A stretch of DNA of 57,138 nt from a virus. The translations under genes and the position numbers were made by a program. This document shows positions 8,523 to 56,601 of the stretch, piece after piece (within the stretch, counting starts at the first letter, position 1; the number at the start of each line of letters is the position of its first letter). Below the pieces are notes generated by a model. That model did no database searches. It was given only the letters and a program-made list of their open reading frames with translations, and was not told where the DNA came from. Location: IMG/VR virus record IMGVR_UViG_3300028384_001023, positions 1 through 57,138 of that record. The stretch is one strand, 5' to 3'.

Positions 8523-8524
8523 AC

Positions 8525-15247: not shown

Positions 15248-15256
15248 AAAAAAGCA

Positions 15257-15285: not shown

Positions 15286-15317
15286 ATACCAGTAAAATTG
15301 ATAATGAGGAGTTTACT

Positions 15318-15566
15318 ATGGCTAAAATGGCAATCACTAAAGGTATGACACAAGACGAGCGTCTTGCAGTTATTCGTAGACATTCTGCTAAATTTACTAA
15401 AAAGCTAAAGCGTAACCAGCGTGTACGTAAGACTGAGACCGAATCATATGAAAAGTATGATAATGGTAATAACATCTATGCGTGGACAGATGCTCCACAA
15501 TATGCGGAGAAATATTATGGTGAGCAGATGCGCGATACCATTGCTATGGATAATGATTGGAACTAG
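15318..15566 (+). CDS. Hypothetical basic protein, 82 aa
   Basis: ATG 15318 follows GAGGAG; an in-frame ATG at 15276 overlaps the promoter and is rejected. The product is basic in its first half (KFTKKLKRNQRVRK) and polar in the second. A nucleic-acid-binding role is possible from charge only. The next gene starts 50 bases before its end in another frame. Confidence 0.65.
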   Translation: MAKMAITKGMTQDERLAVIRRHSAKFTKKLKRNQRVRKTETESYEKYDNGNNIYAWTDAPQYAEKYYGEQMRDTIAMDNDWN

Positions 15567-15813
15567 TGCGTCAGCACAAGATTGTTTCTATGAGCAACGT
15601 TCAAAGTATGAAGACGGTACTGTTGTCAATTCAATTACTCAATACGATTGTAAGACACCACCCGAAGTCATCTATATAGAACGTGATAAGCCCGAGGAAC
15701 CAAAGCCTCGTTTTGATACGCCGTCCTTTTTCTTTGGTGCCACAGCGAAGAAAGACCTCGACACTGTGCTAACTGGACTGCTTTCGACCGTAGTGAGTAT
15801 AGGTGGATTATGA
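15517..15813 (+). CDS. Secreted (signal-peptide) protein, 98 aa
   Basis: Start set at ATG 15517 because GGAG lies 8 bases upstream and because it yields a full signal peptide: MVSRC, hydrophobic core AIPLLWIMIG, then TSASA with cleavage expected before QDC. The mature part is about 78 residues with two cysteines that could pair (DC...YDC) and a hydrophobic C-terminal segment (VLTGLLSTVVSIGGL). Likely periplasmic or membrane-attached. It overlaps the upstream gene by 50 bases. Confidence 0.65.
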   Translation: MVSRCAIPLLWIMIGTSASAQDCFYEQRSKYEDGTVVNSITQYDCKTPPEVIYIERDKPEEPKPRFDTPSFFFGATAKKDLDTVLTGLLSTVVSIGGL

Positions 15814-15935
15814 TTAGGTTGGGAATTGGATTCATTGCTGGAGTTGTGACAGTAGTGTTTTATCCAGAAGTTTTAGATTGGTTTACTACTTCTGGAATGA
15901 GAGATCAATTGATTGATAGATTGGAATCGTTATGA
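15810..15935 (+). CDS. Small single-span membrane protein, 41 aa
   Basis: ATG 15810 overlaps the previous stop (ATTATGA). The N-terminal half (LGIGFIAGVVTVVFY) is one membrane helix; the C-terminal half is amphipathic. Its TGA overlaps the ATG of the lipoprotein gene. The order secreted, membrane, lipoprotein suggests an envelope-acting set. Confidence 0.6.
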   Translation: MIRLGIGFIAGVVTVVFYPEVLDWFTTSGMRDQLIDRLESL

Positions 15936-16528
15936 GAAATATCATCGCATTAAGTATGGTGACTGCACTCGCAGCATGTTCGAACAAGGTTCCACCTGAT
16001 TCAGTAATGTCTCAGATGGAATATGATTACAAGATGAAGCAAGTCGAAAATCAAATCGACGATATGCCTAATTGGTATGAAGAGCCACCTGTAAAAGACG
16101 AAGCTGTCTATGCTGTTGGTACAGCAGTTACTCCAAACCTGCAATTGTCAGTTGATATTGCTGTACTATCGGCTAAGACTACTCTTGCTGATCGTGTTGA
16201 CTCTCGACTTCGTTCACAGCTCAAGACTTTTAAAGGTCGTGTGGGTGCGGATGATTTTGACAGTCAAGTAACTCAAGAGTTTGAACAGGTTACTCGCAAC
16301 TTAATCGCCGATGCTGACGTCGCTGGGTATCGGGTAAATAAGAAAAAGATCGTACAAAACGGTACACAGTATCGAGCGTATGTTCTTCTTGAGTATACCG
16401 ACCTTGAAGCAAAGAAGGTCTTACGTAATCGTTTGATGAAGAGTCGTATGGTTATGGGCAAGATTGAGGCTACAAAGGCTTGGGACGAATTGAATGAAGC
16501 TGTAGAGAAAGAACTAAATCGTCAATGA
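15932..16528 (+). CDS. Lipoprotein, LPP20-like, 198 aa
   Basis: The N-terminus MRNIIALSMVTALAAC is a signal peptide with a lipobox ending at Cys16, so the mature protein should be lipid-anchored. The body contains PNWYEEPP, VYAVGTAVTPN and a C-terminal alpha/beta domain resembling LPP20-type outer-membrane lipoproteins, with a YVLLEY strand. Phage lipoproteins can act in superinfection exclusion or lysis (outer spanin); at this length an envelope-modifying role seems more likely than a classical spanin. It overlaps the FabF gene by four bases. Confidence 0.7.
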   Translation: MRNIIALSMVTALAACSNKVPPDSVMSQMEYDYKMKQVENQIDDMPNWYEEPPVKDEAVYAVGTAVTPNLQLSVDIAVLSAKTTLADRVDSRLRSQLKTFKGRVGADDFDSQVTQEFEQVTRNLIADADVAGYRVNKKKIVQNGTQYRAYVLLEYTDLEAKKVLRNRLMKSRMVMGKIEATKAWDELNEAVEKELNRQ

Positions 16529-17667
16529 AAAGAGTAGCTGTAACCGGCATTGGGATGATCGACGCATTAGGTAATAATCCTAAAGATTGCTTCGATCATC
16601 TCTTAGATGATAACATCTATGATCGTCACTTTGATGATATCGTGTATCCACGTAAGGCTGTCAAAGTTGATCGTTGTCATATGCCGACTACAGATACGAT
16701 ATTACCAGAAGACTTTAATCCAAAGCTTCTGAAGAACATGCCAAGATCTATGCATACTGGATTGCATAGTGTACATCAGGCACTACAAGATGCAAATATA
16801 GAATATAGCTCTAACGTAGGTGTTTTCTATTCTACCTGTTGTAGTAAAGATGGTTTATATGAGATGATGGCTATTACTGAACGCATGCATCCTCTCAAGG
16901 CATTAAATTTACCAGTTGATTCAACTGCTGGTGTAATATCACAACATTATGGTTATACAGGAATTAACTTTGCTGCTCAGTCAGCATGTGCCACTGGTCT
17001 TGTTACTATTGATATGGCTATGAAGTTCTTAGATCAATATGATTATGTTATCGTCGGTGGATCAGATAATGGTGTCAACGAGGTAGATCTCGAGGTTTTT
17101 ACTTCGTTACGTGCTCTTGGTAATAAGTCGATGCCGTTTGATAAAAACCGCGAAGGGTTTGTCATGGGCGAAGGCGCTGGTTGTATGATACTAGAACGAG
17201 AAGAGAACGCAGTTGCTCGAGGTGCCAAGATATATGGTTATCTGTATCCTGTTGCCCATGCATCTGATGCGTTCGATCGTACTAATCCAAGTGGAGTTGG
17301 CGCAGTAACAGTGATGAATAAAGCTATGAATAATGCAGAAGTCTTTGATGTTGACTACGTTAATGCACATGGTACGTCGACTATGATCGGGGATCAAGTA
17401 GAATATGCATCAGTTTCGGAGGTTGGAGAGTATTTAATCACATCGAATAAAGGCAAGATAGGTCATACTTTTGCTGCAGCAGGAATACTCGAGACTATTT
17501 ACTCTTTACTTTCTATTCAACATAACATTATACCTCATACACAAAATTGTATCGATACAGAATTTGATAGGGTGGTAAAAACCCCTATTAAAACAAATGT
17601 CGACTTTGTATTAAATAATTCATTTGGGTTTGGCGGTAAGTGTGCATCACTGGTAATTAGTTCATGA
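16525..17667 (+). CDS. fabF: Beta-ketoacyl-ACP synthase II (FabF-like)
   Basis: 380 residues with the complete KAS catalytic set: nucleophile Cys155 in SACATG, His282 in VNAHGTST, Lys311 and His314 in NKGKIGHTFAAAG, and the C-terminal NNSFGFGGKC gating loop. Typical FabF proteins have about 412 residues, so it is slightly short but not truncated in any motif. It should condense malonyl-ACP with acyl-ACP, and FabF-type enzymes raise the share of long or unsaturated acyl chains. It overlaps genes on both sides by four bases. With the desaturase at 10895 it forms a lipid-oriented auxiliary set. Confidence 0.9.
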   Translation: MKRVAVTGIGMIDALGNNPKDCFDHLLDDNIYDRHFDDIVYPRKAVKVDRCHMPTTDTILPEDFNPKLLKNMPRSMHTGLHSVHQALQDANIEYSSNVGVFYSTCCSKDGLYEMMAITERMHPLKALNLPVDSTAGVISQHYGYTGINFAAQSACATGLVTIDMAMKFLDQYDYVIVGGSDNGVNEVDLEVFTSLRALGNKSMPFDKNREGFVMGEGAGCMILEREENAVARGAKIYGYLYPVAHASDAFDRTNPSGVGAVTVMNKAMNNAEVFDVDYVNAHGTSTMIGDQVEYASVSEVGEYLITSNKGKIGHTFAAAGILETIYSLLSIQHNIIPHTQNCIDTEFDRVVKTPIKTNVDFVLNNSFGFGGKCASLVISS

Positions 17668-18308
17668 TAGAAATATTCGATCATCCTTATCCTAATCATT
17701 TTTTGAAGGATTACTATAACTTCTTCAACGATAACGATAATGCTATCACTGATGAAAAAAATCCTGTCAAAAAGCATGTTCATAATTCATACATAAACAA
17801 CGTGGGAATAGCACTTAGTTTTATGGGCAACTATCAACACATATATCGTGATTGGATTCGATTAAACAATTTTAGATTTATGTTTAAATTAGAACCAGAT
17901 AAGCCAACTATGTGGCCACATATAGATTTTGAACCAGAAGACTGTCCCTCGCTGCGCTCGCGAGTAAAGCGTATATTAATATACGCGAACGAGGTCTGGG
18001 ATGATACCTGGGGAGGAGGCACCTACTTCTCACCTTTCGACATGTACGAGTGCACACATAGATATACACCTCGTACGAGTAAGAAGACATTTATCGAAAA
18101 TGCTGAGAGAGTAGTAAATAAACCTGGTAGAGCAGTAGTATTTGATGTTGATGATTATCATTTGCCTCAAGAGTTTAGTGGTAATACTCATCCACGCTTT
18201 ATATACGGAGGTCTATTAGTTAGACCTGATTCAGCAGAATTATTAGATCAGTTAGAAGTACCAAATAAAGAGACTGGTCGACCTGTTATTGGTCTGAAAA
18301 AAAATTAA
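17664..18308 (+). CDS. 2OG-Fe(II) oxygenase
   Basis: 214 residues with a double-stranded beta-helix iron site: His86 and Asp88 in WPHIDFEP, His166 in DDYHLPQ, and the 2-oxoglutarate Arg178 in HPRFIYGG. The family hydroxylates protein side chains, lipids or small molecules. It starts inside the FabF stop (ATGA overlap), so the pair is co-translated; a hydroxylated acyl product is one idea, protein hydroxylation another. An 18-bp palindrome lies within its coding region at 17969. Confidence 0.75.
   Translation: MIEIFDHPYPNHFLKDYYNFFNDNDNAITDEKNPVKKHVHNSYINNVGIALSFMGNYQHIYRDWIRLNNFRFMFKLEPDKPTMWPHIDFEPEDCPSLRSRVKRILIYANEVWDDTWGGGTYFSPFDMYECTHRYTPRTSKKTFIENAERVVNKPGRAVVFDVDDYHLPQEFSGNTHPRFIYGGLLVRPDSAELLDQLEVPNKETGRPVIGLKKN
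17969..17986. repeat. 18-bp perfect palindrome within the oxygenase gene
   Basis: GCGTATATTAATATACGC reads the same on both strands. It is nested between CTCGCGAG (17957-17964) and an outer CCTCG/CGAGG pair (17947-17951, 17990-17994). The encoded residues (around VKRILIYANE) look like normal protein, so it is coding, but a protein-binding site or mRNA hairpin could be superimposed. Confidence 0.6.
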
Positions 18309-45418: not shown

Positions 45419-45615
45419 AGTTATCTAAAATACAAGGCCATGATAACATGGCTATCGATGAAAACGGTGTAATACATAATATAAATAAGAATGAGATTGA
45501 AGCTGCACGTGAAAGAAAAAAACTACGTAAGCAGCGAGATGCCGAGTTAGAAGATTTAAAGAAGGACGTGAGCGAGATGAAAGATATGCTCGCTAAAATC
45601 ATAGAGAGACTATAA
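45415..45615 (+). CDS. Small coiled-coil protein, 66 aa
   Basis: Overlaps the previous stop by four bases. After a short N-terminal part (QGHDNMAIDENGVIHN) residues 25-66 form a charged helix with heptads (AARERKKLRKQRDAELEDLKKDV then EMKDMLAKIIERL), a likely oligomerising coiled coil. It could be a fibre connector or assembly factor. A late box lies within it. Confidence 0.65.
   Translation: MKLSKIQGHDNMAIDENGVIHNINKNEIEAARERKKLRKQRDAELEDLKKDVSEMKDMLAKIIERL
45480..45487 (+). promoter_or_regulatory. T4-type late promoter box inside the 45415 gene
   Basis: Exact TATAAATA in coding sequence, about 128 bases upstream of the 45615 fibre gene. It could add late transcripts for the distal fibre genes; being intragenic it may be fortuitous. 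Confidence 0.4.
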
Positions 45616-46160
45616 TGCCAAGAAAAATATTAGTAAACCTGAATAATTCTATCGGCACTTTCGTTCAAAAGACGAATGCAATGTCTGACTATGTAGGTGA
45701 CCTCGATAACCTGAATCCAGCAATCGCCGCAGCAAATTCAGACTCTAACTTAGTATCGGCCATTAATTACCTTGACTCTGCTGTAGCCCTACTGGGTGAT
45801 AGTGCCAACTTCTCATTCATGAAAGTTGATAGTGCTGTTATTAATTTCTTAACGGTTGACTCTGCAGTAATCACCACTCTACATGCAGATAGTGCATATA
45901 TAACATATGCTTCGATTAATAGTGCTGATATTAATCACCTTACTGTTGATAGTGGCGCTGTAATTAATGGTGGTCTAGTCGTTGACCGTATCACTGTTAC
46001 AGGAGATTCAACAGATGTGATTCTCCCATACGGCTCGATTGATAGTAACGAGATTCATGATAGCTCAATTAGTAGCAGACACATGGCTATGCTAGTTACT
46101 ACTCTTATTCTCGATTCAGCAGGAACTACATTAAAGACATTATATACACCAGGTAAATAA
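45615..46160 (+). CDS. Short fibre protein with 10-residue repeats
   Basis: 181 residues. Residues about 75-125 carry five consecutive 10-residue units: VDSAVINFLT, VDSAVITTLH, ADSAYITYAS, INSADINHLT, VDSGAVINGG. Such D-S-A/hydrophobic repeats suggest a triple beta-helix shaft. A DSNEIHDSSISSRHM part and a hydrophobic tail follow. Likely a small tail fibre or whisker; it shares the DSA style with the 37054 protein. Confidence 0.7.
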   Translation: MPRKILVNLNNSIGTFVQKTNAMSDYVGDLDNLNPAIAAANSDSNLVSAINYLDSAVALLGDSANFSFMKVDSAVINFLTVDSAVITTLHADSAYITYASINSADINHLTVDSGAVINGGLVVDRITVTGDSTDVILPYGSIDSNEIHDSSISSRHMAMLVTTLILDSAGTTLKTLYTPGK

Positions 46161-47390
46161 ATGACTGTACGCTCACCTTTATATTATACAGACAGTGGCA
46201 ATTTTCAAGAGTACTCATTAGTCGAACTCAATGATATTTACGCTGCAGTAAAAAGACAATTCTTAGCTTCTCCTTCGGTCGTACTCAACGTTGTGGCTTC
46301 AGGAGGAAACTTAGGTAATATATCAGAAACTCAAGTGATTGCTAGTCCAGCAAGAAGCAATAATCGTAGTTTTGGTAATAACACAGGCACACTAGGTAAC
46401 ATATCTACTGGTACTGTACAATATAGTCGTATCAATCAGGTACTCACACCTCCGGCTCAAAGCTTCAATGTTCAAAGTTTTAAGACTGGAGCATTTGGTA
46501 CAAATCCACCAATATACATGAATGATAGTGGAAACTTTGAACCATTCAATGATTCAGACTTTATCGATACGTTTGTTAAGCCCGCGGTAAATTCATTTGC
46601 ATCAGCTGCAAGCGATCCACTTTATCAAATCGCTGGTGCTGTAACACCTACAGGATACTCACGAGTATCGAATACTCCTATATACGTTGATAATAATGCC
46701 AATATTAGCGCATATGGTTCAGGAGCTTTGCCCGAAGCAAGGACTCAAGGGACAGTAATCAACAACTATTATCTTGTTCGTAAATCAAGTGGTGGAGTAA
46801 ATAACATTAGATCAGATGTTACGTATCAAATAGTAAATTTACAAGGCGTAGGAACTGGATTAAAAGTAGATGTATCAAAAATTGGCACGACATATAATTT
46901 GATTATTAATGATGGCGGTCAAAACTATCAAGCTGCTGATAGCTTCAAGATACTAGGAACTGAGCTTGGTGGTTCTACTCCTGATAATGATATCAATTTT
47001 CTAGTCAATGGTGTAGACTCTGCAAATGCTCCACAGCCATTTGCTGTCACAGCTTTAATTACCTCTGGTACTCCAGTTGCAAAAGAATACCACGTACCAG
47101 TTACTCATACAAACTCTGGTGATTTTAAAGTAATGCCAAAATCAACCTTTGATAATATGATTCAGTTAGCTGCAAAAGATGTTTCTACGTCCACTCCTGG
47201 TTATACTATCACATACGATTTTAATACTGGCCAACAGGTCGGTACAGCTATGATAGACACTCGGCTATTGAATCCAACACAAACAAGAAGAAACTATCAA
47301 ACTGGTGATACATACTATTCACAGAGAGTGCCAACTGGTGGAACACAAACTCAAGTTAACTCACATTATTTAGGAGTCACTATAACATGA
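46161..47390 (+). CDS. Virion structural protein with repeated PxYxxDSGNF motif
   Basis: 409 residues. A motif recurs about four times: SPLYYTDSGNFQEYS, PPIYMNDSGNFEPFN, TPIYVDNNANISAY and, weakly, VTHTNSGDFKVMP, each followed by a helical segment (e.g. DFIDTFVKPAV). This points to four repeated domains in a fibre or baseplate-peripheral protein. Starts directly after the previous stop. Confidence 0.65.
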   Translation: MTVRSPLYYTDSGNFQEYSLVELNDIYAAVKRQFLASPSVVLNVVASGGNLGNISETQVIASPARSNNRSFGNNTGTLGNISTGTVQYSRINQVLTPPAQSFNVQSFKTGAFGTNPPIYMNDSGNFEPFNDSDFIDTFVKPAVNSFASAASDPLYQIAGAVTPTGYSRVSNTPIYVDNNANISAYGSGALPEARTQGTVINNYYLVRKSSGGVNNIRSDVTYQIVNLQGVGTGLKVDVSKIGTTYNLIINDGGQNYQAADSFKILGTELGGSTPDNDINFLVNGVDSANAPQPFAVTALITSGTPVAKEYHVPVTHTNSGDFKVMPKSTFDNMIQLAAKDVSTSTPGYTITYDFNTGQQVGTAMIDTRLLNPTQTRRNYQTGDTYYSQRVPTGGTQTQVNSHYLGVTIT

Positions 47391-47884
47391 TTACCTCAGA
47401 AAACCTTGTACAGGCTCGTTATACTGATGACGCTCGTACTACTATTGAATGTTTAATTAAAAATGACGTAGATGATTTGATGCATTCTTTCTATGTCAAC
47501 GTTGACCCTGAGAATGTTTATTTTCAACAGTTAATGACAGTTGCATCTCTCGAAGATATTGATGCATGGTCAGAGACTTACTATGCAAATATCCGTGAAG
47601 AGATTGAGACAGTACACACCCAACTAATCGAAGCTGGCAAGGTTGATTATACACGTATTGCTGGTCCAGAAGATACTGCTCAACAAATGGAAAAGTATGC
47701 ACAGATGATGTTTGCATACGACGACACTGATACCGATCACGTTGAAAAGATGTTTAACTTGAAGCTTGAGCTGTTTGAGTTAGATGAAGTAGAAAACGCG
47801 GATAGCGCAACAAAAGAAGCTTTACGTTTAGAGGATGATCCTGTAAATCTTGTTAAACAATTATGGGATATCAGGAATCCATAG
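47387..47884 (+). CDS. Acidic protein, possible fibre assembly factor, 165 aa
   Basis: Strongly acidic and helical (DDTDTDHVEKM, LFELDEVENADSATKEA). It overlaps the preceding structural gene by four bases and is the last + strand gene before the - strand island. Acidic helical proteins at the end of fibre operons are often chaperones, but this is only positional inference. Its end overlaps the convergent gene by 14 bases. Confidence 0.5.
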   Translation: MITSENLVQARYTDDARTTIECLIKNDVDDLMHSFYVNVDPENVYFQQLMTVASLEDIDAWSETYYANIREEIETVHTQLIEAGKVDYTRIAGPEDTAQQMEKYAQMMFAYDDTDTDHVEKMFNLKLELFELDEVENADSATKEALRLEDDPVNLVKQLWDIRNP

Positions 47885-48482
47885 TGTAGTGTAATAACTT
47901 TACATTTGGGTTTACTTTATCTAAATAAAAGTAATCACCTGGGTATTTACGATTTATTTGAGTCAACCATTCTTTGGTTGGCTCTTTTATCATACGGCCA
48001 CACCATTCATCAGGTATAAATTTCAAATCGAGTCTCTTCTTAACCATGTACTCTACGAAATTCTCTTCGCCGTTTACAGGACCAGGTTTTACACCGAGTT
48101 TAATAAAATACTCTTCCCAAAAGAATTGAGATTGTACAAACTCGTCGTAGATATATCTTACGTCGTCAGGATAAAACTTATAAAAACCACCGTTGAGTTC
48201 ACAACCTGATACTTCTTCCCACCATGACCTCATACTCAAGAACTCTCCGCGTTTTATCGGATAGTTGATGATATCCATGTAGTCATTGATTAGGTCAATA
48301 TCAATATCGAGTACTACGACTGGCTCAGGACCTTGCACATTAAAGAAATTTATCTTATTCCACTGTAGCTTAAATTGTCCTTCATGCATAACTTCGATAT
48401 GCGGTATACGTTGCCGTATATGGTCTTCATAATCTAGCCCATATTTACTGCCTATGCGGCACGTATAAACCCTCAATTCCAT
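47871..48482 (-). CDS. Glycosyltransferase-like protein (- strand island, 1)
   Basis: 203 residues with a DxD-type motif VVVLDIDIDL (about residues 59-63), preceded by QWNKINFF; this K-x-x-x-F arrangement before the DxD is typical of small capsule-type GT-A transferases in phages. NGGFYKFYPDD may be the acceptor side. Last gene of the operon, overlapped 10 bases by the gene upstream. Confidence 0.6.
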   Translation of the reverse strand: MELRVYTCRIGSKYGLDYEDHIRQRIPHIEVMHEGQFKLQWNKINFFNVQGPEPVVVLDIDIDLINDYMDIINYPIKRGEFLSMRSWWEEVSGCELNGGFYKFYPDDVRYIYDEFVQSQFFWEEYFIKLGVKPGPVNGEENFVEYMVKKRLDLKFIPDEWCGRMIKEPTKEWLTQINRKYPGDYFYLDKVNPNVKLLHYTMDS

Positions 48483-49258
48483 AGTTCTTCTACCTTGTCA
48501 TACATCTGTGCTGCTTCATGTAATTCAAAATTAGTAGAGTTATTTGGATCAGTGTTGAATACACATATAATCTTGTCGTCTCTGAGTTTATGTCTTTCCA
48601 TATCATCAGGCCATTTACAACCTCGATTGAACGAGTAGTACATTGAAGGTGGTAGAAAATCAAACTTATCAAGATGACGTTGACTAATAAAATTGTCTGA
48701 TCCACCTGTGTAGATATGATAGATCCTTTCAGCGTGTTCTATACAATCATTCCAAATATCTATTAACTGAGTATCATCCCACATATAAAATCCACCATTA
48801 TTTTTGGCACCATGTCGATGCTTCCAATCAGGGTTATTTTCGTGTTCTGGATTGTGCCACCAAGATCTACCTGTCAATGGTCTTCCTTTGTACAGATTGA
48901 GTATAGGAGTCATATCGTTGTGTATGATAACGTCTAAGTCAAGTGCTATTCGTAAACCAGTTAAGCCCCAACAATACGGTTTAAAGTAGTTTAACTTTGG
49001 TCTGTCCCATAGGCGAGGCTTTCCGTTTCTCCAGTTATCTGAAGAAAACATTTCATCTGGCGTTGATTCTGGTAGGTCTCGTAGGAATGGGAGTATGGTT
49101 ATACGTTCATCTATTCCCTGTGCATCCTCTGTCTGACAGTAGAATTTAAATTCACAGGGCATATGTTTTTTAACCATATTATAAAGCCGATTGACATATA
49201 TTGGTTCATATTTGTCTCCCCACTTACTGCATATGATATTAATCATCTCTTTCGCCAA
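48473..49258 (-). CDS. Glycosyltransferase-like protein (- strand island, 2)
   Basis: 261 residues. ALDLDVIIHND holds the DxD (Asp107/Asp109), with CSKWGDKYEPIYVNRLYNMV near the N-terminus and NNGGFYMWDD and GSDNFISQR in the C-terminal half. Same architecture as its downstream neighbour: residues before the DxD include RPKLNYFKPY. Predicted cytoplasmic sugar transferase. Confidence 0.65.
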   Translation of the reverse strand: MAKEMINIICSKWGDKYEPIYVNRLYNMVKKHMPCEFKFYCQTEDAQGIDERITILPFLRDLPESTPDEMFSSDNWRNGKPRLWDRPKLNYFKPYCWGLTGLRIALDLDVIIHNDMTPILNLYKGRPLTGRSWWHNPEHENNPDWKHRHGAKNNGGFYMWDDTQLIDIWNDCIEHAERIYHIYTGGSDNFISQRHLDKFDFLPPSMYYSFNRGCKWPDDMERHKLRDDKIICVFNTDPNNSTNFELHEAAQMYDKVEELWN

Positions 49259-49865
49259 TAATCATAAATCTCTTATTATAATGATAATCATCGAATGGTA
49301 TCTCACCCTTATAGAAAGGTTTTATGATACCTGTCTGTTCTTGAAATTCTTCAAGAGATTCTACACAGTTTACATGAGCAGGTTCTTGTATGAAATCGTT
49401 TGATTGGAAAGCACACATGCCTTTGAATCTAATATCCTTCATATGCCACATATGCTCGCATGATGTATTGATTATGATATCTGCTTCAAGACTCTTCATG
49501 TCAAAGCTAATATCTCGACATTCGGTAGTAATATTACTGAACATCATCTTTGCTATATTCAATGTTCCGTGATCATAATCAACTAATACGATCTCTTTAA
49601 TATCTTTTAAATAATGTCTTAAGAGAGGAACGATTAGTGTACCATACCAAGCACCGAGTACATAGATGGTCTTATCCTTTTTTCCAGCCACAGGTGATAA
49701 TGATAGTCTTTCGACTAACCAAGATTTAGCTCTTATTTGATTTTCAGAATAAGAACGGGCGAAGTCTAAAGATCGATGCGGGTATTCTACTGCTATATGT
49801 TGTGCTATACGAGAAAATGTCCAAAATGGTATTGGACACTTAAGCATTGTTTTTGTAATAGTCAA
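49239..49865 (-). CDS. Class I SAM-dependent methyltransferase-like protein
   Basis: 208 residues. IYVLGAWYGTLIVPLL is a motif I-like glycine turn (about 67-82), EIVLVDYDHGTLNIA the acidic loop after strand 2, and DIIINTSCEHMWHM a motif IV-like segment. Substrate unknown; a small molecule, sugar or peptide is possible. It overlaps the radical SAM gene by 26 bases and the transferase gene by 20. Confidence 0.65.
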   Translation of the reverse strand: MTITKTMLKCPIPFWTFSRIAQHIAVEYPHRSLDFARSYSENQIRAKSWLVERLSLSPVAGKKDKTIYVLGAWYGTLIVPLLRHYLKDIKEIVLVDYDHGTLNIAKMMFSNITTECRDISFDMKSLEADIIINTSCEHMWHMKDIRFKGMCAFQSNDFIQEPAHVNCVESLEEFQEQTGIIKPFYKGEIPFDDYHYNKRFMIIGERDD

Positions 49866-50610
49866 AGCTTTTTCCTCCCAAGACTTGGCCGTCTACATTA
49901 CAACTAATACAAGGACTCATGATTCTTTTTCCCCTCATCATTAAATTACGATAAGAATTAAAGTAATCTGATTCCCATATATCGTGTATCCAATCTCTGT
50001 TTACATTACCAAATACTTGGCTTACGTTCCAATCATTACTGCATAGACCAACATCACCATTCCAATTTACAAACATCTTATAGAAGGGTAAGAAACATGC
50101 TCGTTCTTTATTGATTATCTTTTTATCAGACCACATTTCATTTCTGTTTACCTCTACCTCTTCTGGTAAACCAGTATAATAATGTTTGTATATACGTTCG
50201 ATATCGTATTGTTTTAAAAAAGACTCATAATGTTCTGTCATGTCTTCATCATACATAGAGACCTTTATGCAGTTAATACCTGCTTTTACAAGTTCAGCCG
50301 CAGACTCTGATGTTAGATAATCACCATTTGTTATGAGCTTTATCTGTTTTAATTGTACACCACTTTTTAGTGTTTGTACATAGTTTTTTATTTTTTTATG
50401 TAATAAAGGTTCGCCGAACCCAGCTAAGGTAATAGTTCCCTGATAATCTAAGTTTCGTAGAGAACGATTAATCGACTTAATCGTATTCATACTCATCTGC
50501 GATTTTGTATTTTCAAATCCTACACCGCGAGGGCAAAAGCTGCATGTACGGTTACATATGTCAATGAGATTCAATTCTATCGAAGAAAGGGTGTTCCTTG
50601 TTAAGCGCAC
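49840..50610 (-). CDS. Radical SAM enzyme with SPASM-like C-terminus
   Basis: 256 residues from a GTG start (50610-50608). The [4Fe-4S] site is C19-x3-C23-x2-C26 in CNRTCSFC; GFGEPLL is the SAM-binding GGE-type motif. C-terminal Cys172, Cys190, Cys234 and Cys237 (SPCISC) form a SPASM/twitch-like auxiliary cluster site, seen in enzymes that modify peptides or sugars. The substrate may be a protein residue or an amino sugar; this cannot be told. It overlaps the aminotransferase gene by 50 bases. Confidence 0.8.
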   Translation of the reverse strand: MRLTRNTLSSIELNLIDICNRTCSFCPRGVGFENTKSQMSMNTIKSINRSLRNLDYQGTITLAGFGEPLLHKKIKNYVQTLKSGVQLKQIKLITNGDYLTSESAAELVKAGINCIKVSMYDEDMTEHYESFLKQYDIERIYKHYYTGLPEEVEVNRNEMWSDKKIINKERACFLPFYKMFVNWNGDVGLCSNDWNVSQVFGNVNRDWIHDIWESDYFNSYRNLMMRGKRIMSPCISCNVDGQVLGGKSFDYYKNNA

Positions 50611-51445
50611 TTTTTGTCACCATATTACGATTAATTAATGCCATTCGGCCATATCCATCAAACTCTTTTAAGTGAAAGTGTTTGGTGAACTTATCATAGT
50701 TTTTCAACATCACATAGTTTCCATGCGAAGGAATGCATGCGTAATTCTTTTCTATATATGTCTTAGTTGCGTTCATCCTTTTGATATGATGAGGTATCTC
50801 ATCTAACATACTCGGTAAGTTTTCTGCTACTCCACCAATGCACACATGAGCTGGTCTTAGGTTTTGTATCTCGTATATGAGTGCCTCGTGGCCAATCGCC
50901 CAACCAAAACGAATTCCAGGTAACGCCAACGATTTGCTCATTGTCTTGAGGTAAAGTACGTTTGGTGTACCAAGTTTTACTGATGGAGTTTCACAAAAAT
51001 CACCGTACGCTTCGTCAATGATTACTAATTTATGTTTATCGATATATTCCTTATAGTCTTCTATAAGTTTACCATTCTCTCCATGAGGATTAGCTATATA
51101 GCAAACGTCTTGACCATGAGAAACTCCATAGAGTTTTTGAGCCATGGCTACTGGCTTCCAAGAACTGATATTTGTCAATGACATATTTTTTGATTTGATG
51201 ACTTGCATTATACGCATCAGCAGTTCGCTCAAGCCTAATCCAATAGCGATTTGTCTATTATAAACTTGATGATAATCTGCTAGTATATTATAGCATGTCG
51301 CAGTATTCGAGTATCTCGAGTAATCAAACTCGTAATGAGGCAAACCAGCATCCCAACAAACATTAGTCGAAAGATCGATTTTGTAATCTCGATGGTACTC
51401 GTCTTTTGTCCAGTCTGGTCTTATTTCCAGTAATCTTGTATCCAT
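50561..51445 (-). CDS. Class I/II PLP-dependent aminotransferase (HisC/CobD-like)
   Basis: 294 residues. NPHGENG (Asn119), VIIDEAYGDF (Asp144, Tyr147), the Schiff-base lysine Lys171 in TMSKSLALPGIRFGWAIG and Arg179 match the histidinol-phosphate aminotransferase or threonine-phosphate decarboxylase group. It is shorter than HisC (about 350), lacking much of the N-terminal arm. With radical SAM and methyltransferase genes next to it, it probably makes or attaches an unusual amino compound. Confidence 0.75.
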   Translation of the reverse strand: MDTRLLEIRPDWTKDEYHRDYKIDLSTNVCWDAGLPHYEFDYSRYSNTATCYNILADYHQVYNRQIAIGLGLSELLMRIMQVIKSKNMSLTNISSWKPVAMAQKLYGVSHGQDVCYIANPHGENGKLIEDYKEYIDKHKLVIIDEAYGDFCETPSVKLGTPNVLYLKTMSKSLALPGIRFGWAIGHEALIYEIQNLRPAHVCIGGVAENLPSMLDEIPHHIKRMNATKTYIEKNYACIPSHGNYVMLKNYDKFTKHFHLKEFDGYGRMALINRNMVTKSALNKEHPFFDRIESH

Positions 51446-52032
51446 TTGTCCTCTCTTAACTCATCTTGTTTTTTGTCTAGCATGATGTGTATTTGATCGA
51501 GAGGTCTTTCATATAAGACATAATCATTTGGAAAACGATGCTCGATAAAAGAATCAATGCCAGTAAAGACACTCATTATTTTTTCTTGATTGTCAACAAA
51601 GTATTTCCAAATATGATTCCTTTTCGTCTCTTTATTCCATGACATTACCGAAGAGTTGATAGAGCAATATCGCTGTCTGTTGCCAATCGTTTCTTCTCTG
51701 AGTTTAGCTAAGTCAACCCAACTCGTATGTAGCATTTTCATGTATAAATCAGGACGATGAATTTCGTTGATGTCACCTTTAATTACTATATCTAAGTCGA
51801 AGAATACTCCTTCTTCGATAAAGTCTTCGTCAAATAAAACCATTTTTGACCACCACTTTTGTAATCGTGTTGGAGCTTCAATAGTTTTTATATATTTAGG
51901 TAGCGTACTCGCATCATCAGTTATACAATTCATAGTGTACGGTTTATCGTAAGTACGAGATATCATACTTTCGAGTTTAATTACAAACTCATCACTATAT
52001 CTTGATCCTACCTTCACGCAATAAAAGTTCAT
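51421..52032 (-). CDS. Glycosyltransferase-like protein (- strand island, 3)
   Basis: 203 residues. FFDLDIVIKGD carries the DxD (Asp79/Asp81), preceded by QKWWSKMVLFD as in the related genes of this operon; CSINSSVMSW is the acceptor-site-like segment. Overlaps both neighbours (25 and 38 bases). Confidence 0.65.
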   Translation of the reverse strand: MNFYCVKVGSRYSDEFVIKLESMISRTYDKPYTMNCITDDASTLPKYIKTIEAPTRLQKWWSKMVLFDEDFIEEGVFFDLDIVIKGDINEIHRPDLYMKMLHTSWVDLAKLREETIGNRQRYCSINSSVMSWNKETKRNHIWKYFVDNQEKIMSVFTGIDSFIEHRFPNDYVLYERPLDQIHIMLDKKQDELREDKWIQDYWK

Positions 52033-52633
52033 ATCTATCTAACCATAATTTTGCATTTTTTGTATCTTTGTATTTATCATCAAGAGGTATACCATCAGTA
52101 AAGTGTATAGCCTTTGGGTTTTCAAATTCGTAGTAGCCTTCGAGTGTATTCCACTCAAGAGGCAAAGAACCGATCTGATCATCTTCAAGCCATTTGAATT
52201 GATGCATATAAAGAGGATGGCAATCGGCTATAAACGTTGGTGATAATAAACGATTTGCTGGATGATCACAGTTCCACAAGATCAGAGACGACCAATTCTT
52301 TCTCTCATAAGGTTTTTGTGGTTTACCATCCATCTTTTCTTCAGTATGAGGAGTGTAGTGTGGATGCTTACAAACTAGTACAGCATATTTTGGATCGATA
52401 TATTTGAGAAGTGTACGTGGTGTATCCAGGAAATAAAAATCACTATCACAGTAAAGATGCCAGCCATGATACTGCATTTGAAAAGGAACCAAAAAACGAG
52501 ACATAGAAAAACGAGTACTACCTATATGAGGCAATATCATGTTTCTCGTATAGTCTGTATCTTCATTGATAGTAGATTCACACACCTTATATTGAGGCAT
52601 GTAGTCTTCATCGTAGCCAATTACGCATTTCAT
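51995..52633 (-). CDS. Glycosyltransferase-like protein (- strand island, 4)
   Basis: 212 residues. LYCDSDFYFLD holds a DxD (Asp63/Asp65); NWSSLILWNCDHP and a C-terminal AIHFTDG complete a GT-A/GT8-like plan in which the late His helps bind metal. Start ATG 52633. Overlaps the upstream gene by 26 bases. Confidence 0.65.
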   Translation of the reverse strand: MKCVIGYDEDYMPQYKVCESTINEDTDYTRNMILPHIGSTRFSMSRFLVPFQMQYHGWHLYCDSDFYFLDTPRTLLKYIDPKYAVLVCKHPHYTPHTEEKMDGKPQKPYERKNWSSLILWNCDHPANRLLSPTFIADCHPLYMHQFKWLEDDQIGSLPLEWNTLEGYYEFENPKAIHFTDGIPLDDKYKDTKNAKLWLDRYELLLREGRIKI

Positions 52634-53276
52634 CTTCTAACTCTTCTACACCCACATTTTTTAAAGGAGCATCAAAATAATCTTGTTTTATTGTGCCATC
52701 GTAATGATCAACATTCCATGACATACCTAAATTGCCGTTCCCATATAAAATTGGTCTCACTTTACCGTCTAAATACATCTCAAGCTTTGGTTGAGATACG
52801 AGTAAAGTTGGTGTATTTGTCCAAAGCGCCATAGCCAAGAGAGTAGTTCTTTCTGCTACTACCAGATCGGCATATATCATCCAATCGAGTACATCATCCC
52901 ACTTATCTCTATAACTGAATTCTTCAATTCGATAATCTTTATATATGTTACCCGGTAAATGTATGCCCCTTGTCTTTACAGAGTAACTATTAAATCCGAA
53001 CTCTGATGCACGATAAGTTAGCACATATCCACCTCCGCCTTTCCATTGTTTTGTAAATGGCCAAAGCGAAGTAAAGACTTCTGTATCTTTATATGGAATA
53101 TCTTTTACAGTGGCGATAGTATAAGCAACCTCAAAATTATCTGGTTGTTTGAAATTTCTTGTAAGAAACTTTAATCTGTCAAGGTTTGTTTCTTTATCGC
53201 TCTCTTTAAACTTGTCTAACTTATTTTCATCAACGACTAAGAGTATAGACCAGACAAAGGGTTCAGGAGAAGCCAC
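52608..53276 (-). CDS. Unknown protein, possible GT-B-like fold, 222 aa
   Basis: Starts at GTG 53276; no ATG is available and the ribosome site is weak, so the start is uncertain (the frame stays open about 25 bases further upstream). ADLVVAERTTLLAMALWTNTPTLLVS resembles the nucleotide-sugar side of GT-B transferases, where a Thr/Ser loop faces the donor phosphate. No firm family assignment. Confidence 0.45.
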   Translation of the reverse strand: MASPEPFVWSILLVVDENKLDKFKESDKETNLDRLKFLTRNFKQPDNFEVAYTIATVKDIPYKDTEVFTSLWPFTKQWKGGGGYVLTYRASEFGFNSYSVKTRGIHLPGNIYKDYRIEEFSYRDKWDDVLDWMIYADLVVAERTTLLAMALWTNTPTLLVSQPKLEMYLDGKVRPILYGNGNLGMSWNVDHYDGTIKQDYFDAPLKNVGVEELEDEMRNWLR

Positions 53277-53295
53277 TTCATAGAACTTCTGTGCT

Positions 53296-53847
53296 TTAGT
53301 TTAATATATTATCAATGGTTGCATTATATTGATCAAGAGTACCGTTGTTGACGATATGCCAATCTACCTTTTCTTCTAGTCTATCTATAGCAGGCTGATG
53401 GCTATTAAACTCTTTTAAAATTTCGGGCTTTACAAGTTGATAAGAATTCTTTTTTCCTTGTAATCGTGGATCGAGCAGCTTTACTTTCTCATATAGTCTT
53501 TGGCACTGTGTTTCTAATGGTGCTGTAATTAACACAGTTTCAAACCTATCGTCATTATCGTTTATCCACTCAAGTAGTTCTACTGACCCAGTAGACCATA
53601 TGTCGTATCCACTGTATCTTTCTGGACTTAAAGCATCGATAAGAGATTTAAAGTGTTCTTCGAACTCTTCAAGTTCTGATTGAGTGGACTGATATGGACC
53701 AGAGATAGGAGAATGCTTAATCTTCATTGAAGCTCTTAAATCTCTATACACTACATTCATGTCAAGTATAGCTAACCCATAGGTTTCGGCACGTTTAGCA
53801 AAGGTATCAACACCGCTACCTTGCATTCCGCCAATCATTAAGGTCAT
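53296..53847 (-). CDS. P-loop nucleotide/small-molecule kinase
   Basis: 183 residues with an N-terminal Walker A-like loop GGMQGSGVDTFAK (residues 6-18, G-x-x-G-x-G-x-D/K-T type) and a LID-like region around RLYEKVKLLDPRLQGKK. This pattern fits dephospho-CoA kinase or NMP kinase relatives. The usual Walker A lysine is replaced (GVDT instead of GKST), so phosphate transfer may be altered. It could activate a precursor for the operon. Its ATG overlaps the upstream gene by four bases. Confidence 0.6.
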   Translation of the reverse strand: MTLMIGGMQGSGVDTFAKRAETYGLAILDMNVVYRDLRASMKIKHSPISGPYQSTQSELEEFEEHFKSLIDALSPERYSGYDIWSTGSVELLEWINDNDDRFETVLITAPLETQCQRLYEKVKLLDPRLQGKKNSYQLVKPEILKEFNSHQPAIDRLEEKVDWHIVNNGTLDQYNATIDNILN

Positions 53848-54566
53848 ATGATTCTCCTACTCATCATCGTATCAAAAGCCTCAATTGTCAGACCGATGAA
53901 GAACTGATATATACCATCTTCTTTAGCATGAGCGCTATGTACTAAACTCGAATCGAAGATGTAGATTTTGCCTGGTTTGATAGTATTTATATGTTTTCCA
54001 TCCATTTTCAGCATCATCTTATCAGATGTAGTACCCCATAGACGAAGATTAGGAGTAGGTAATTTAACATCGACATGCTCTTTAAAATGACCCATCTTGT
54101 CCCACTTGAGAATAGCACTACGACACATGAAATCACCAAATGCATTCGTTAATGGTTGTAGAGATTTCATATAGAATGCTGGAGTCTTCTCACGTATATC
54201 ATGATCAAATAAGATATTATCTTTGTCTTGATGATGTATGAAATGTTCATCGAGAGGCATACGTGAAGGGTCATTTTCTTCGTTCATCGAGCCTGTTACG
54301 TTTACTAGAGGTGTACCATAACGAGGATATTGTTTATGTGTATTTCCCCACTGAGTAAATTCGAATTGTGTTATTTCTTCTTTAAAGGAATCGATATCAA
54401 TGTCAATGTCAGTCTCAACAATAGGACTAGTGTGTAGTTCATAATACTGTTCTTCATTGATAGCTGGTTGAGAGATATATTTGAAGATCATAGCCATGAG
54501 TTTATCTTCAGGCTGACCCTTTAAGTGTGGATGTGTTTCGAATAGTGTTTCAAGTGCTTGTTGCAT
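53844..54566 (-). CDS. HxD...H Fe(II)/2OG hydroxylase-like protein A
   Basis: 240 residues. GHFKEHVDVKLPTPNLRLWGTT gives His164 and Asp166, and DSSLVHSAHAKEDG gives His210 (or His213) of a cupin-type iron site; the layout is close to aspartyl/asparaginyl beta-hydroxylases. N-terminal 60 residues are helical with a run of Asp/Ile (DIDIDID). Likely hydroxylates protein Asp/Asn or a small molecule. One of three adjacent hydroxylase-like genes. Confidence 0.65.
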   Translation of the reverse strand: MQQALETLFETHPHLKGQPEDKLMAMIFKYISQPAINEEQYYELHTSPIVETDIDIDIDSFKEEITQFEFTQWGNTHKQYPRYGTPLVNVTGSMNEENDPSRMPLDEHFIHHQDKDNILFDHDIREKTPAFYMKSLQPLTNAFGDFMCRSAILKWDKMGHFKEHVDVKLPTPNLRLWGTTSDKMMLKMDGKHINTIKPGKIYIFDSSLVHSAHAKEDGIYQFFIGLTIEAFDTMMSRRII

Positions 54567-55089
54567 AAACTGACCTTAAGTGTTCTATCATTGTTTCATT
54601 CGCTTTACGACACACTACGAAGTGTATACGAGGCTGTTCACTTTCATTAAATGCACTATGTTCAAATACAGTCTCGAGTTCATAGAGTTGACCTAAATGT
54701 TTCATCTCTACTCTTACTTTGTTTTCCATAAAATAGCAAGAAGAGTTAGTCTGTAGCGGTATATGCAATCGATTAGAGATGTCATAATGATATGTATAAC
54801 TCGGCTTAGAAGGGTCGAGTCTCATAAATCTACCGCGGCATATATTATACTTCTTATCTAACTCGTTGTAAACCTCTTCTACATATGTTCCTCTAAACAT
54901 TTCATTTACTATAGTAAAATCGTTTTGATTTAATTTTTGTTTAGACAAGTCTCCACTTTCATAGACATAAGTAGAACCATCTGGAGACGACACGTGTACC
55001 TGATGTGAGTCAAATGGTAAGCTATCGTAAATCTTTTGTAATGATTCGTAATCAAACTTTTCTGCTAATTGCTTCATAATCCTCATCAA
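54550..55089 (-). CDS. HxD...H Fe(II)/2OG hydroxylase-like protein B
   Basis: 179 residues. YTYHYDISNRLHIPL holds His101 and Asp103, FEHSAFNES holds His144, and PRIHFVV provides Arg154. The RLHIPL strand and the R-x-H ending are the pattern of the aspartyl/asparaginyl beta-hydroxylase family. Overlaps copy A by 17 bases. Confidence 0.7.
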   Translation of the reverse strand: MMRIMKQLAEKFDYESLQKIYDSLPFDSHQVHVSSPDGSTYVYESGDLSKQKLNQNDFTIVNEMFRGTYVEEVYNELDKKYNICRGRFMRLDPSKPSYTYHYDISNRLHIPLQTNSSCYFMENKVRVEMKHLGQLYELETVFEHSAFNESEQPRIHFVVCRKANETMIEHLRSVYATST

Positions 55090-55510
55090 AGAAAGATATT
55101 TTATATAATATCCTCTCTTTTTTCCCTTTGTTATTTACTCCATGTATTACAGAAGTATTGAGTAATGCCGTTTTATAAAGATAGTCTTTACCTTCAACCG
55201 TCACTGGAGCAGCATCTGCACTAAGAACATGATTTACAGAACACGTGGTATTATAATCAATATGTGGCATTAAGTAACTATCTGAGTCGAGTATGTAATA
55301 TCTTGGTACACCGTTTTCTAAGCCAAAATATTTACAGAATCGATTCGCCTCTTCCCATGCCCGCGGGAGATGAAGAGAATCACCCTTTAATATTTTCCAG
55401 TTTTCGTTCTTTCCATGCTTGTCATCATGATATACTTCAAATTGATTTGTTTCAGCCTCGATCAATAGATCCTCTGATTTAAAATCAAACTCTATTTGTT
55501 TTAGATTCAT
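55052..55510 (-). CDS. HxD...H Fe(II)/2OG hydroxylase-like protein C
   Basis: 152 residues, nearly only the beta-helix core. YLMPHIDYNTTCSVNHVL gives His83 and Asp85, VIHGVNN gives His123 and ERILYKISF Arg133. Same order as copy B but clearly diverged. Overlaps neighbours by 26-38 bases, so all three copies are co-translated. Confidence 0.7.
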   Translation of the reverse strand: MNLKQIEFDFKSEDLLIEAETNQFEVYHDDKHGKNENWKILKGDSLHLPRAWEEANRFCKYFGLENGVPRYYILDSDSYLMPHIDYNTTCSVNHVLSADAAPVTVEGKDYLYKTALLNTSVIHGVNNKGKKERILYKISFFDEDYEAISRKV

Positions 55511-56126
55511 GTCTCATCCTTAATGTGTGCTCATCGTATGACATTACTTTCGGCGCCCAATCTTCGATTGTATATCCATTAAATGGTAAATATACGACAT
55601 TTTGATAGCACGTAGATAATTCTCCTGGATATACTTGTACCAGTCCCTTATTATAGTTTACCCACTTCTTTGAAAATGATTGCAAAGTCTTACACATCAT
55701 TTTCCACCATAACTGTTGTCCTGATAACATAGCTCTTCGTTGTTGCATACTAATGAAATACAAGTCATACTTTAATTTCATGATATCTCTAAATGAAGAG
55801 TTTAACACCTTTAATGTAATCATAAGTTCTTCACGATGGGACCAAGATTTTCCTCTGTCTTTAGGAAACAAATACCATCGATTCATCAATCGCGCCACAT
55901 GTGGTGTATACTCTTTGATACCCGACATAAGTATTGGTTTGCCATCATGATCATATTGCACACAGTAACAAACTTGATCTGATATCTTCAAGTTCTCTTT
56001 CGTATAGTTATCGCGTAACCAATTTTTCTTATCAGATAGACAAATCTCACGGACTTTTTCGAATTCAGGATTATCATAGTCGAATATCCATAACTCACCA
56101 GCTTCATTCTTTATTCGTTTATCCAA
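55485..56126 (-). CDS. Unknown protein, first gene of the - strand island, 213 aa
   Basis: Contains WIFDYDNPEFEKVREICLSDK, VCYCVQYDHDGKPILMSGIKEY and MNRWYLFPKDRG; the strand order is faintly like a GNAT acetyltransferase, but the acetyl-CoA loop is not evident. Directly behind both an early-type and a late-type promoter. Function not assigned. Confidence 0.55.
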   Translation of the reverse strand: MDKRIKNEAGELWIFDYDNPEFEKVREICLSDKKNWLRDNYTKENLKISDQVCYCVQYDHDGKPILMSGIKEYTPHVARLMNRWYLFPKDRGKSWSHREELMITLKVLNSSFRDIMKLKYDLYFISMQQRRAMLSGQQLWWKMMCKTLQSFSKKWVNYNKGLVQVYPGELSTCYQNVVYLPFNGYTIEDWAPKVMSYDEHTLRMRHESKTNRV

Positions 56127-56160: not shown

Positions 56161-56189
56161 ATTATATCATATTATCACGGTCTTGTAAA
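56161..56189 (-). promoter_or_regulatory. Sigma70-like phage promoter, copy 7 (- strand)
   Basis: On the - strand: TTTACA (56189-56184), 17-base spacer, TATAAT (56166-56161). Same spacing as the + strand copies. It drives the modification operon from 56126. Confidence 0.75.
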
Positions 56190-56190: not shown

Positions 56191-56199
56191 CTATTTATT
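56191..56199 (-). promoter_or_regulatory. Possible late-type box, - strand, one mismatch
   Basis: The - strand reads TAATAAATAG before GGTTTACA, close to the TATAAATAGGTTTACA context seen at 25445. It lies just upstream of promoter copy 7, so the island may be transcribed both early and late. Confidence 0.35.
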
Positions 56200-56206
56200 A
56201 TAAATA
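56199..56206 (+). promoter_or_regulatory. T4-type late promoter box for the 56248 gene
   Basis: Exact TATAAATA, back-to-back with the - strand late-like box. Expected start near 56213, about 35 bases before ATG 56248; GAGGG is the ribosome site. Confidence 0.65.
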
Positions 56207-56247: not shown

Positions 56248-56601
56248 ATGGCCCAATATGAACAGTTTACAATAGATCAGGGTTCTGATGTTGCCATAGA
56301 GCTTCATCTTGTTGACGCATCAGGAAATAAGAAGGATCTAAACGGCTATACTGGCGCTGCCACTATGAAGCGTAACTATAATAGTGACAGTGCAGATACA
56401 ACCAATTTCGCATTTGCTATCAATACTCCACCAGCTGATGGAATTATTACACTCTCGTTGACTAACGCCCAAACAGATGCATTGCGCTCTGGTAGGTATG
56501 TATTTGATGCTGAAATCCAGTATACTGATAGTAATGACAATGATATTATTGAACGGATTTTAGAGGGTAAGATAGTAGTTACACCAGCCGTTACCGTATA
56601 G
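56248..56601 (+). CDS. Small virion structural protein, Ig-like, 117 aa
   Basis: FTIDQGSDVAIELHLVDASGNKKDLNGYTGAATMK, ITLSLTNAQTDALRSGRYVFDAEI and a final strand LEGKIVVTPAVTV form a compact beta sandwich of a kind frequent in phage fibre regions. First gene behind the late box. Probably a fibre or decoration protein. Confidence 0.7.
   Translation: MAQYEQFTIDQGSDVAIELHLVDASGNKKDLNGYTGAATMKRNYNSDSADTTNFAFAINTPPADGIITLSLTNAQTDALRSGRYVFDAEIQYTDSNDNDIIERILEGKIVVTPAVTV

Follow-up and report, generated by a model that had tools for sequence, protein, structure and literature searches.

Results

The window, the whole 57,138-nt stretch of DNA analysed here, comes from a marine T4-like phage and carries a 13-gene enzyme operon nested among tail-fibre genes on the - strand, at 47871-56126 (Table 1). 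A sequence-only reading had placed the operon correctly and noted that nearly all of its genes overlap, which holds for 11 of the 12 junctions (4-50 nt), the remaining one, F/E, being a 19-nt gap; it had counted twelve genes, although its own list sums to 14. Four of its products are probable GT-A glycosyltransferases and three are HxD...H oxygenases; the others are a radical-SAM enzyme, a PLP aminotransferase, an acyltransferase with a GNAT fold, a SAM methyltransferase, a kinase-like protein with a P-loop and one protein without an assigned fold. Chance ORFs are excluded because the full set of 13, in unchanged order, is present in related contigs, at least four in number (L001/L011, which are one contig, L008, L009 and L014), with protein identities to the window mostly of 42-88% and a minimum of 33% for kinase-like E in L014. 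Against L008, genes A-E are 48-72% and F-M 73-88% identical; block replacement of the A-E half was considered, but no recombination is claimed since synonymous sites are near saturation. No membrane-spanning segment was predicted in any of the 13 proteins. Tail or fibre genes lie on both sides, as had been reported, with 45615, 46161 and 47387 on the left and 56248 and 56610 on the right. The 3′ ends of genes 47387 and M overlap by 14 nt, and the phrog families matched by gene 56248 are annotated 'L-shaped tail fiber protein assembly'.

Table 1. Genes and sequence features of the operon and its borders, with positions in the window.
Feature	Positions	Strand	Basis
D-S-A/G repeat fibre gene	45615..46160	+	7 DS[AG] in 181 aa
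Fibre gene anchoring hotspot	46161..47390	+	homologs in 115 viral stretches
Final gene of left fibre operon	47387..47884	+	homolog in ~50/53 loci
M, probable glycosyltransferase, DID motif	47871..48482	-	cluster c0
Hairpin, possible terminator	47960..47984	+	10-pair stem then TTTT
L, probable glycosyltransferase, DLD motif	48473..49258	-	cluster c0
K, SAM methyltransferase	49239..49865	-	AlphaFold pLDDT 88; Foldseek matches are methyltransferases
J, predicted BtrN-like radical SAM/twitch dehydrogenase	49840..50610	-	PF04055 and PF13186
I, small PLP aminotransferase, HisC/CobD-like	50561..51445	-	PF00155 E 6e-11
H, glycosyltransferase, DLD motif	51421..52032	-	phrog_1962 glycosyltransferase E 5e-13
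G, glycosyltransferase, DSD motif	51995..52633	-	phrog_28018 E 1e-42
F, possibly GT-B-like	52608..53276	-	alignment of 5 homologs
E, P-loop kinase-like protein	53296..53847	-	conserved G-x-QG-x-G-x-x-TF-like motif
D, oxygenase, fold family as C	53844..54566	-	motif and Cpz10 match
C, Asp/Arg beta-hydroxylase family oxygenase	54550..55089	-	PF05118 30.3 bits, cut-off 22.6
B, 2OG/Fe(II)-type oxygenase-like (HxD...H...R)	55052..55510	-	motif conservation
A, GNAT-fold acyltransferase	55485..56126	-	AlphaFold pLDDT 78; Foldseek
Sigma-70-type extended -10 promoter TTTACA-N17-TATAAT, facing operon	56161..56189	-	11/12 matches and TG
T4-type late promoter TATAAATA of diverging fibre gene 56248	56199..56206	+	
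Right border gene, fibre assembly family	56248..56601	+	phrog_1084 E 1e-22, phrog_3304 E 8e-16

The motif residues of the three oxygenases, recognised in the earlier reading, are invariant: H101, D103, H144 and R154 in 15 sequences of gene C, H164, D166 and H210 in nine of gene D, and H83, D85, H123 and R133 in ten of gene B. Only gene C passed a Pfam cut-off, gene B had no Pfam match, and Pfam scans of all three gave no match to Tet_JBP or to any other family of DNA-base oxygenases. A single-protein scan of viral contigs returned no relatives of gene C and one of gene D, a gap that the fibre-gene alignment closed. Cpz10 (7v4f) is the best solved relative of both C (E 3e-25) and D (E 2e-4). 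Gene C keeps the HxD...H...R of this PF05118 enzyme, but the similarity is at family level only. Cpz10 is the caprazamycin beta-hydroxylase, whose substrate is a small nucleoside intermediate (PMC9814697).

The radical SAM (SPASM), aminotransferase and methyltransferase assignments were confirmed. The best solved relative of gene J is BtrN (4m7s), aligned over the whole length with an E of 3e-29; the cysteines of the radical SAM motif CxxxCxxC (C19/C23/C26) and all four of the twitch-domain auxiliary cluster (C172/C190/C234/C237) are invariant in four sequences. In butirosin biosynthesis BtrN converts a cyclitol alcohol to a ketone ahead of transamination, and both BtrN and Cpz10 stem from antibiotic pathways. 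As in the butirosin pair, the radical SAM and twitch cysteines match and a PLP aminotransferase adjoins, but the operon aminotransferase, gene I, is HisC-like and short (TIGR01141 hisC E 9e-21, under the family cut-off) and the remaining operon genes are of a glycan type. A Mosig-type radical SAM family (c12) was rejected by profile as BtrN-like. Synechococcus phage S-SCSM2R has an adjacent pair homologous to I and J between its tail genes and its long tail fibre gene (38% identity between gene I and SSCSM2R_38), and in Campylobacter phage WX1 BtrN, a probable glycosyltransferase with a DLD motif and a small aminotransferase are consecutive genes, with a tail gene nearby. Modules of this kind, in which a BtrN homolog accompanies a PLP aminotransferase close to fibre or tail genes, are represented by S-SCSM2R and the Campylobacter phages WX1, CPt10 and CP20, with S-SCSM2R and WX1 as the neighbourhoods examined; these two differ from this operon in having no detected homologs of A-D and K, and the hosts differ.

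Among the Foldseek PDB matches listed for the gene A model nearly all are GNAT acetyltransferases, so that one of the two genes left as unknowns in the earlier reading now has a fold. Homologs of gene A were found in other cassettes too, and it was swapped singly between L009 and L011 (74% identity versus 99% for its neighbours). The kinase call for gene E holds as far as the P-loop motif; structure matches were sub-threshold throughout (e.g. dephospho-CoA kinase), and no kinase family could be assigned from profile and structure-match searches. Four of five proposed sugar transferases (G, H, L and M) stood, and the fifth, F, had no detectable relative outside its own operon group, its N-terminus being ~45-60 aa shorter than those of its relatives in the alignment of five homologs. 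Homologs of gene G in phages S-SCSM2R, Mosig and DLP_6 carry glycosyltransferase annotations. Genes L and M belong to the cluster of gene H (c0) and contain DxD, and gene L is 25% identical to the L001 ortholog of H; DxD is present in L, M and H, and the best structures were glycogenins at a weak E of 0.03, the glycogenin/GT8 profile matches of L and M being weak as well. A second cluster in the window, at 2042-10458, contains a GT25 gene, of a family named for LPS biosynthesis. The family of gene K occurs in 39 of 53 loci. Its Rhizobiales homologs have glycosyltransferases alongside in 78 of 80 loci, and the single cellular cluster read fully contains an ABC exporter-like gene.

Homologs of fibre gene 46161, of which the best 80 of 115 viral stretches were kept, define a hotspot: enzyme cassettes of varied composition and orientation lie 3′ of this same fibre gene at almost every one of the 53 distinct loci. 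With baseplate divergence removed, cassette content correlated with fibre identity (partial rho 0.285, p 0.001), as it did without the window-type clade (partial rho 0.26). On the left, gene 43835 matches phrog_358 and has its Mosig counterpart in the VrlC gene region, while the right end of the island lies beyond the window; a megablast of the structural region matched no annotated phage. D-S-A-rich fibres were confined to this fibre clade and to two contigs whose fibre head is related, an oxygenase gene being visible in one of the two as well. In L193 a D-S-A fibre goes with a cassette of quite another make-up: the 3.3 kb covered has an oxygenase and two radical SAM genes, and no glycosyltransferase was seen there. 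Neither the lipid-linked initiating transferase (PF02397) nor the flippase (PF14667) was detected in seven phage records, one of them the complete genome of Mosig; the controls were positive.

The sigma-70-type promoter facing the operon is kept in four relatives with unchanged spacing, and in the window-type cassette this early-type promoter stands back to back with the late promoter of the fibre gene. TATAAATA also lies a few tens of bases upstream of structural genes 25437(-), 25486 and 37054; its pooled DNA-pattern count was not above chance, and its weight comes solely from position before structural genes and conservation. In L022, L037, L047 and L056 the K homolog is preceded by a late promoter, and several cassette types are on the same strand as the late fibre genes and placed after them. 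The hairpin, where fibre and cassette transcripts converge, was found in five relatives, the T-run not in every one.

Discussion

The operon looks more like a set for tailoring an amino sugar than one for hydroxylating proteins and then glycosylating them, since the nearest solved relatives of C and J are Cpz10 and BtrN. In the order of steps that we infer, J would oxidize a sugar hydroxyl to a ketone and I would convert this to an amine, which A would probably acylate; K may contribute a methylation, B, C and D may hydroxylate the sugar or acyl group, E may phosphorylate an intermediate, and G, H, L and M, with F as a possible fifth, would transfer sugars. Such a soluble pathway would make and decorate a short glycan that contains an amino sugar of the phage's making, and the fibre proteins of the phage itself are its most likely acceptor, a reading to which we give slightly less than even weight. 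If the fibres are the acceptor, the cassette would therefore be exchanged together with them, as a receptor-recognition or shielding module. In its favour are the whole-length match of J to BtrN and the I/J-like pairs near fibre or tail genes elsewhere, the fibre-linked hotspot with its content-fibre correlation, the late-promoter cassettes of relatives, and the lack of membrane segments in the 13 proteins and of lipid-linked sugar machinery in the seven phage records. Against it, the conserved sigma-70-type promoter is as expected for early host-acting genes while the fibre neighbours are late, the correlation could arise from physical linkage alone, and the cellular homologs of K sit in glycosyltransferase clusters. 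Nor is an acceptor protein implied, since the substrates of BtrN and Cpz10 are small molecules.

Modification of the fibres is thus favoured only narrowly over modification of the host, in which the same pathway would act early in infection on the LPS core or O-chain of the host's outer surface and block adsorption of competing phages, the cassette lying beside fibre genes since both belong to a host-recognition island. This second reading is a serious contender that we consider somewhat doubtful. The conserved early-type promoter fits it at least as well, and it is in line with the Rhizobiales K homologs within glycosyltransferase clusters and with the GT25 of the second cluster. Passages of the published account of pelagimyophage host recognition clusters likewise link GT8 glycosyltransferases to superinfection avoidance (PMC7029224). 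However, the absence of an initiating transferase and a flippase from the seven records weakens the de novo form of the capsule or O-chain synthesis raised earlier, the cassette has no membrane protein, homologous cassettes in relatives are under late control, and in other phage lineages BtrN modules adjoin fibre or tail genes.

The sequence-only reading had proposed that fibre Asp/Asn (or other residues) are hydroxylated and the new hydroxyl O-glycosylated, for example in the D-S-A units. Gene content, nesting and the content-fibre tie support it in part, but hydroxylation as the acceptor-making step seems unlikely: the three oxygenases have intact motifs and PF05118 covers protein beta-hydroxylases by name, yet the nearest solved relative of gene C is a small-molecule hydroxylase (PMC9814697), the Ser of D-S-A needs no prior hydroxylation, and J, I, A and E are left unexplained. 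The restriction of D-S-A-rich fibres to one clade and two contigs, one with an oxygenase gene, speaks for the model, but the repeats are not specific evidence for an acceptor because L193 has them with a quite different cassette and no glycosyltransferase seen. A diffusible product, such as a nucleoside-like or amino-sugar compound, would suit the antibiotic-pathway origin of Cpz10 and BtrN but is improbable given several glycosyltransferases, the fibre linkage and a cassette that contains no carrier-protein, ligase or export genes. Least probable of all is hypermodification of phage DNA or nucleotides, for which the vocabulary (kinase-like, PLP, radical SAM, methyltransferase, glycosyltransferase) resembles known base-hypermodification systems and the promoter is early-type, but no DNA-base oxygenase family was matched in the Pfam scans of B, C and D, the glycosyltransferases are several and distinct, and exchange is tied to fibre genes.

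In virion-glycosylating phages, e.g. mycobacteriophages, the phage's own glycosyltransferases are thought to act on structural proteins; the tailoring set here is far richer. A literature search, mostly outside subscription journals, turned up no work on fibre glycosylation in marine phages. The class of island is already known: passages of Zaragoza-Solas et al. 2020 (PMC7029224) describe the pelagimyophage host recognition cluster as a hypervariable island, flanked by VrlC and gp14, that combines fibre genes with glycosyltransferases and radical-SAM cassettes, and assign its glycosyltransferases to host O-chain change. The present island is likewise hypervariable, with fibre genes, glycosyltransferases and radical-SAM cassettes, in the phage family of Pelagibacter phage Mosig, but differs from the cluster as described in those passages in its BtrN-like/aminotransferase pair, GNAT gene, early promoter and fibre-content correlation. 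Its composition and regulation appear new.

More speculatively, and with some doubt on our part, marine, cyanobacterial and Campylobacter T4-like phages may share a fibre-linked module of BtrN-type oxidation and transamination that puts an amino sugar on virion fibres, with early enzymes in this clade readying the donor for late fibres and the hydroxylase/acyltransferase end being swapped piecemeal, as in an antigen locus. If the fibre is the acceptor, a swappable glycan would join protein sequence in determining which hosts these very abundant ocean phages infect, and host prediction from fibres would miss half the code. If the host surface is the acceptor, the operon would stand out as an unusually elaborate case of early surface conversion, in phages whose sequence, as far as examined, gives no hint of a temperate lifestyle. 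In both cases, the BtrN-like/aminotransferase pair offers a concrete entry point to the products of phage glycosyltransferase islands.

Organization and transcription of the cassette

The window, a 57-kb IMG/VR virus fragment, derives from a T4-like phage whose core genes are closest to annotated Phage C48C1 (Kyanoviridae), Methylophilales phage Melnitz and Pelagibacter phage HTVC008M (33-58% protein identity); Pelagibacter phage Mosig is the source of some of the closest annotated matches to its cassette and fibre genes. Thirteen ORFs (genes A to M) run from 56126 to 47871 and overlap at 11 of 12 junctions. Since all 13 are collinear in L001/L011 (one contig), L008, L009 and L014, they represent genuine genes under selection, and the operon proposed by the sequence-only reading is real and conserved, with 13 genes rather than 12. 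No membrane span-type hydrophobic stretch was found in any of the 13 proteins. Compared with all its relatives, gene F is missing ∼45-60 residues at the N terminus, probably through a deletion at the E/F junction. A hairpin at 47960-47984, antisense within gene M and kept in five relatives, marks the meeting point of fibre and cassette transcripts.

Two back-to-back predicted promoters separate gene A from the right border fibre gene (56248), and both are kept in four relatives with cassette proteins mostly 45-90% identical. The window has further sigma-70-type sites upstream of 655, 10495 and 20191, the last being the gp32 gene; late-type sites lie upstream of structural genes 25437 (minus strand), 25486 and 37054, as well as 56248. 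From this distribution of promoter classes, cassettes with the window's gene set are predicted to be early and the fibres late.

Features of the cassette and of other regions of the window
Feature	Position	Strand	Remark
A	56126 (5′ end)	-	GNAT fold (predicted); first gene
B, C, D		-	oxygenases
E		-	P-loop protein
F	52608-53276	-	no assigned family
G, H		-	glycosyltransferases
I		-	aminotransferase
J		-	radical SAM
K		-	methyltransferase
L, M	47871 (3′ end)	-	probable glycosyltransferases
Extended -10 sigma-70 site TTTACA-N17-TATAAT	between A and 56248		faces operon
T4-type late site TATAAATA	between A and 56248		faces diverging fibre gene 56248
Epimerase	2752	+	second sugar cluster
Sulfotransferase	6423	+	second sugar cluster
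Glyco_transf_25	7124	+	second sugar cluster
Several probable glycosyltransferases, two methyltransferases	within 2042-10458	+	second sugar cluster
Fatty acid desaturase	10895
Class III aminotransferase	12458
Beta-ketoacyl synthase	16525
2OG oxygenase, weak match	17664

Tailoring enzymes

The most informative assignment of the operon is that of gene J, whose profile matches BtrN over its full length (E 3e-29; next non-BtrN match 1.5e-6) and whose seven cysteines are invariant. BtrN oxidizes 2-deoxy-scyllo-inosamine to a ketone, from which a PLP aminotransferase then makes the amine. Gene I, adjoining J, encodes a PLP aminotransferase, and the operon would carry an unexpected BtrN-type amino-sugar logic. 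In Synechococcus phage S-SCSM2R, I and J homologs are adjacent in the same order between tail genes and the long tail fibre gene. In Campylobacter phage WX1 a BtrN homolog is followed by genes for a DLD-motif protein and for a small aminotransferase of class I/II, whose resemblance is weak, with a tail protein gene nearby. These arrangements indicate that such a pair is kept near fibre or tail genes across phage groups with different hosts. WX1 (L195 4246-15977) also encodes several radical SAM proteins and an amidinotransferase.

Gene K is predicted to have a SAM methyltransferase fold. Its family travels with glycan genes, since in Rhizobiales a GT4 gene and a GT28-type gene each adjoin the K homolog at 78 of the 80 genomic loci. 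In these genomes (L104-L183) the three form a conserved chromosomal cluster, to which Sinorhizobium meliloti adds ABC exporter-like and FkbM-like genes.

Gene C exceeds the PF05118 cut-off and its profile matches Cpz10 of caprazamycin biosynthesis (E 3e-25), which hydroxylates a small glycyluridine intermediate (PMC9814697). Gene D matches the same solved structures weakly, and gene B was recognised solely through its invariant HxD...H...R residues.

A fibre-linked hotspot

Searching with the left fibre gene (46161) and taking the best 80 of 115 viral loci gave 53 distinct loci. Nearly all with enough sequence have an enzyme cassette, in either orientation, downstream of the 46161 homolog; c0 cluster glycosyltransferases occur in 48 of the 53 and K-family methyltransferases in 39, alongside oxygenases, radical SAM genes, aminotransferases and further tailoring enzymes. 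About eight contigs carry the window-type cassette, and a 56248 homolog forms the right border in several loci, as in the window. A ∼90-100 aa cassette protein in three loci (L019 8058, L036 19143, L066 15171) has a late promoter motif 6 nt upstream of its start.

With VrlC-like baseplate divergence controlled, cassette similarity correlates with adjacent-fibre similarity (partial rank correlation 0.285, p 0.001; the value is 0.26 when the window-type clade is left out), although DNA linkage alone, without functional coupling, could explain this. Cassettes of L009 and L011 are 93-100% identical except for gene A (74%); on either side of it, B and the right border reach 99%. This suggests that the putative acyltransferase gene alone was replaced, which fits a locus under diversifying exchange.

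Target of the cassette

The fibre is favoured over the host surface as target by a modest margin, on location, recurrence by tail genes, fibre-content correlation, soluble enzymes and late control in relatives. Modification of the host surface draws support from the early-type promoter of the window-type cassette, from the interpretation given to pelagimyophage islands in the literature (PMC7029224), and from a second dense cluster at 2042-10458, with glycosyltransferase and sulfotransferase genes. Since K homologs in L022, L037, L047 and L056 have late sites, and some other cassettes lie downstream of fibre genes on the same strand, timing does not discriminate between the two targets. Apart from these, the region 10495-18308 has a metallopeptidase-like gene downstream of a sigma-70-type promoter, followed by the last four genes of the table; this is a possible lipid-modifying set.

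Hydroxylation of Asp or Asn to create glycan acceptors, the chemistry first proposed for the fibres, is possible but not favoured, because J, I, A and E would then have no role and the closest relatives of solved structure are small-molecule enzymes. The D-S-A repeat fibre (45615) is limited to the window clade and two contigs sharing a related fibre head. In L193 (11115-14398) this fibre type precedes two radical SAM genes and a 2OG oxygenase gene in inverted orientation, and this stretch shows no glycosyltransferases. Searches of seven phage records, including complete Mosig, detected no initiating transferase or flippase family although their positive controls worked, which makes de novo synthesis of a capsule or O-antigen unlikely.

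Taken together, the operon is a variant of a known glycosyltransferase-rich host-recognition island, to which the putative BtrN-type amino-sugar logic and the early-type promoter appear to be new.
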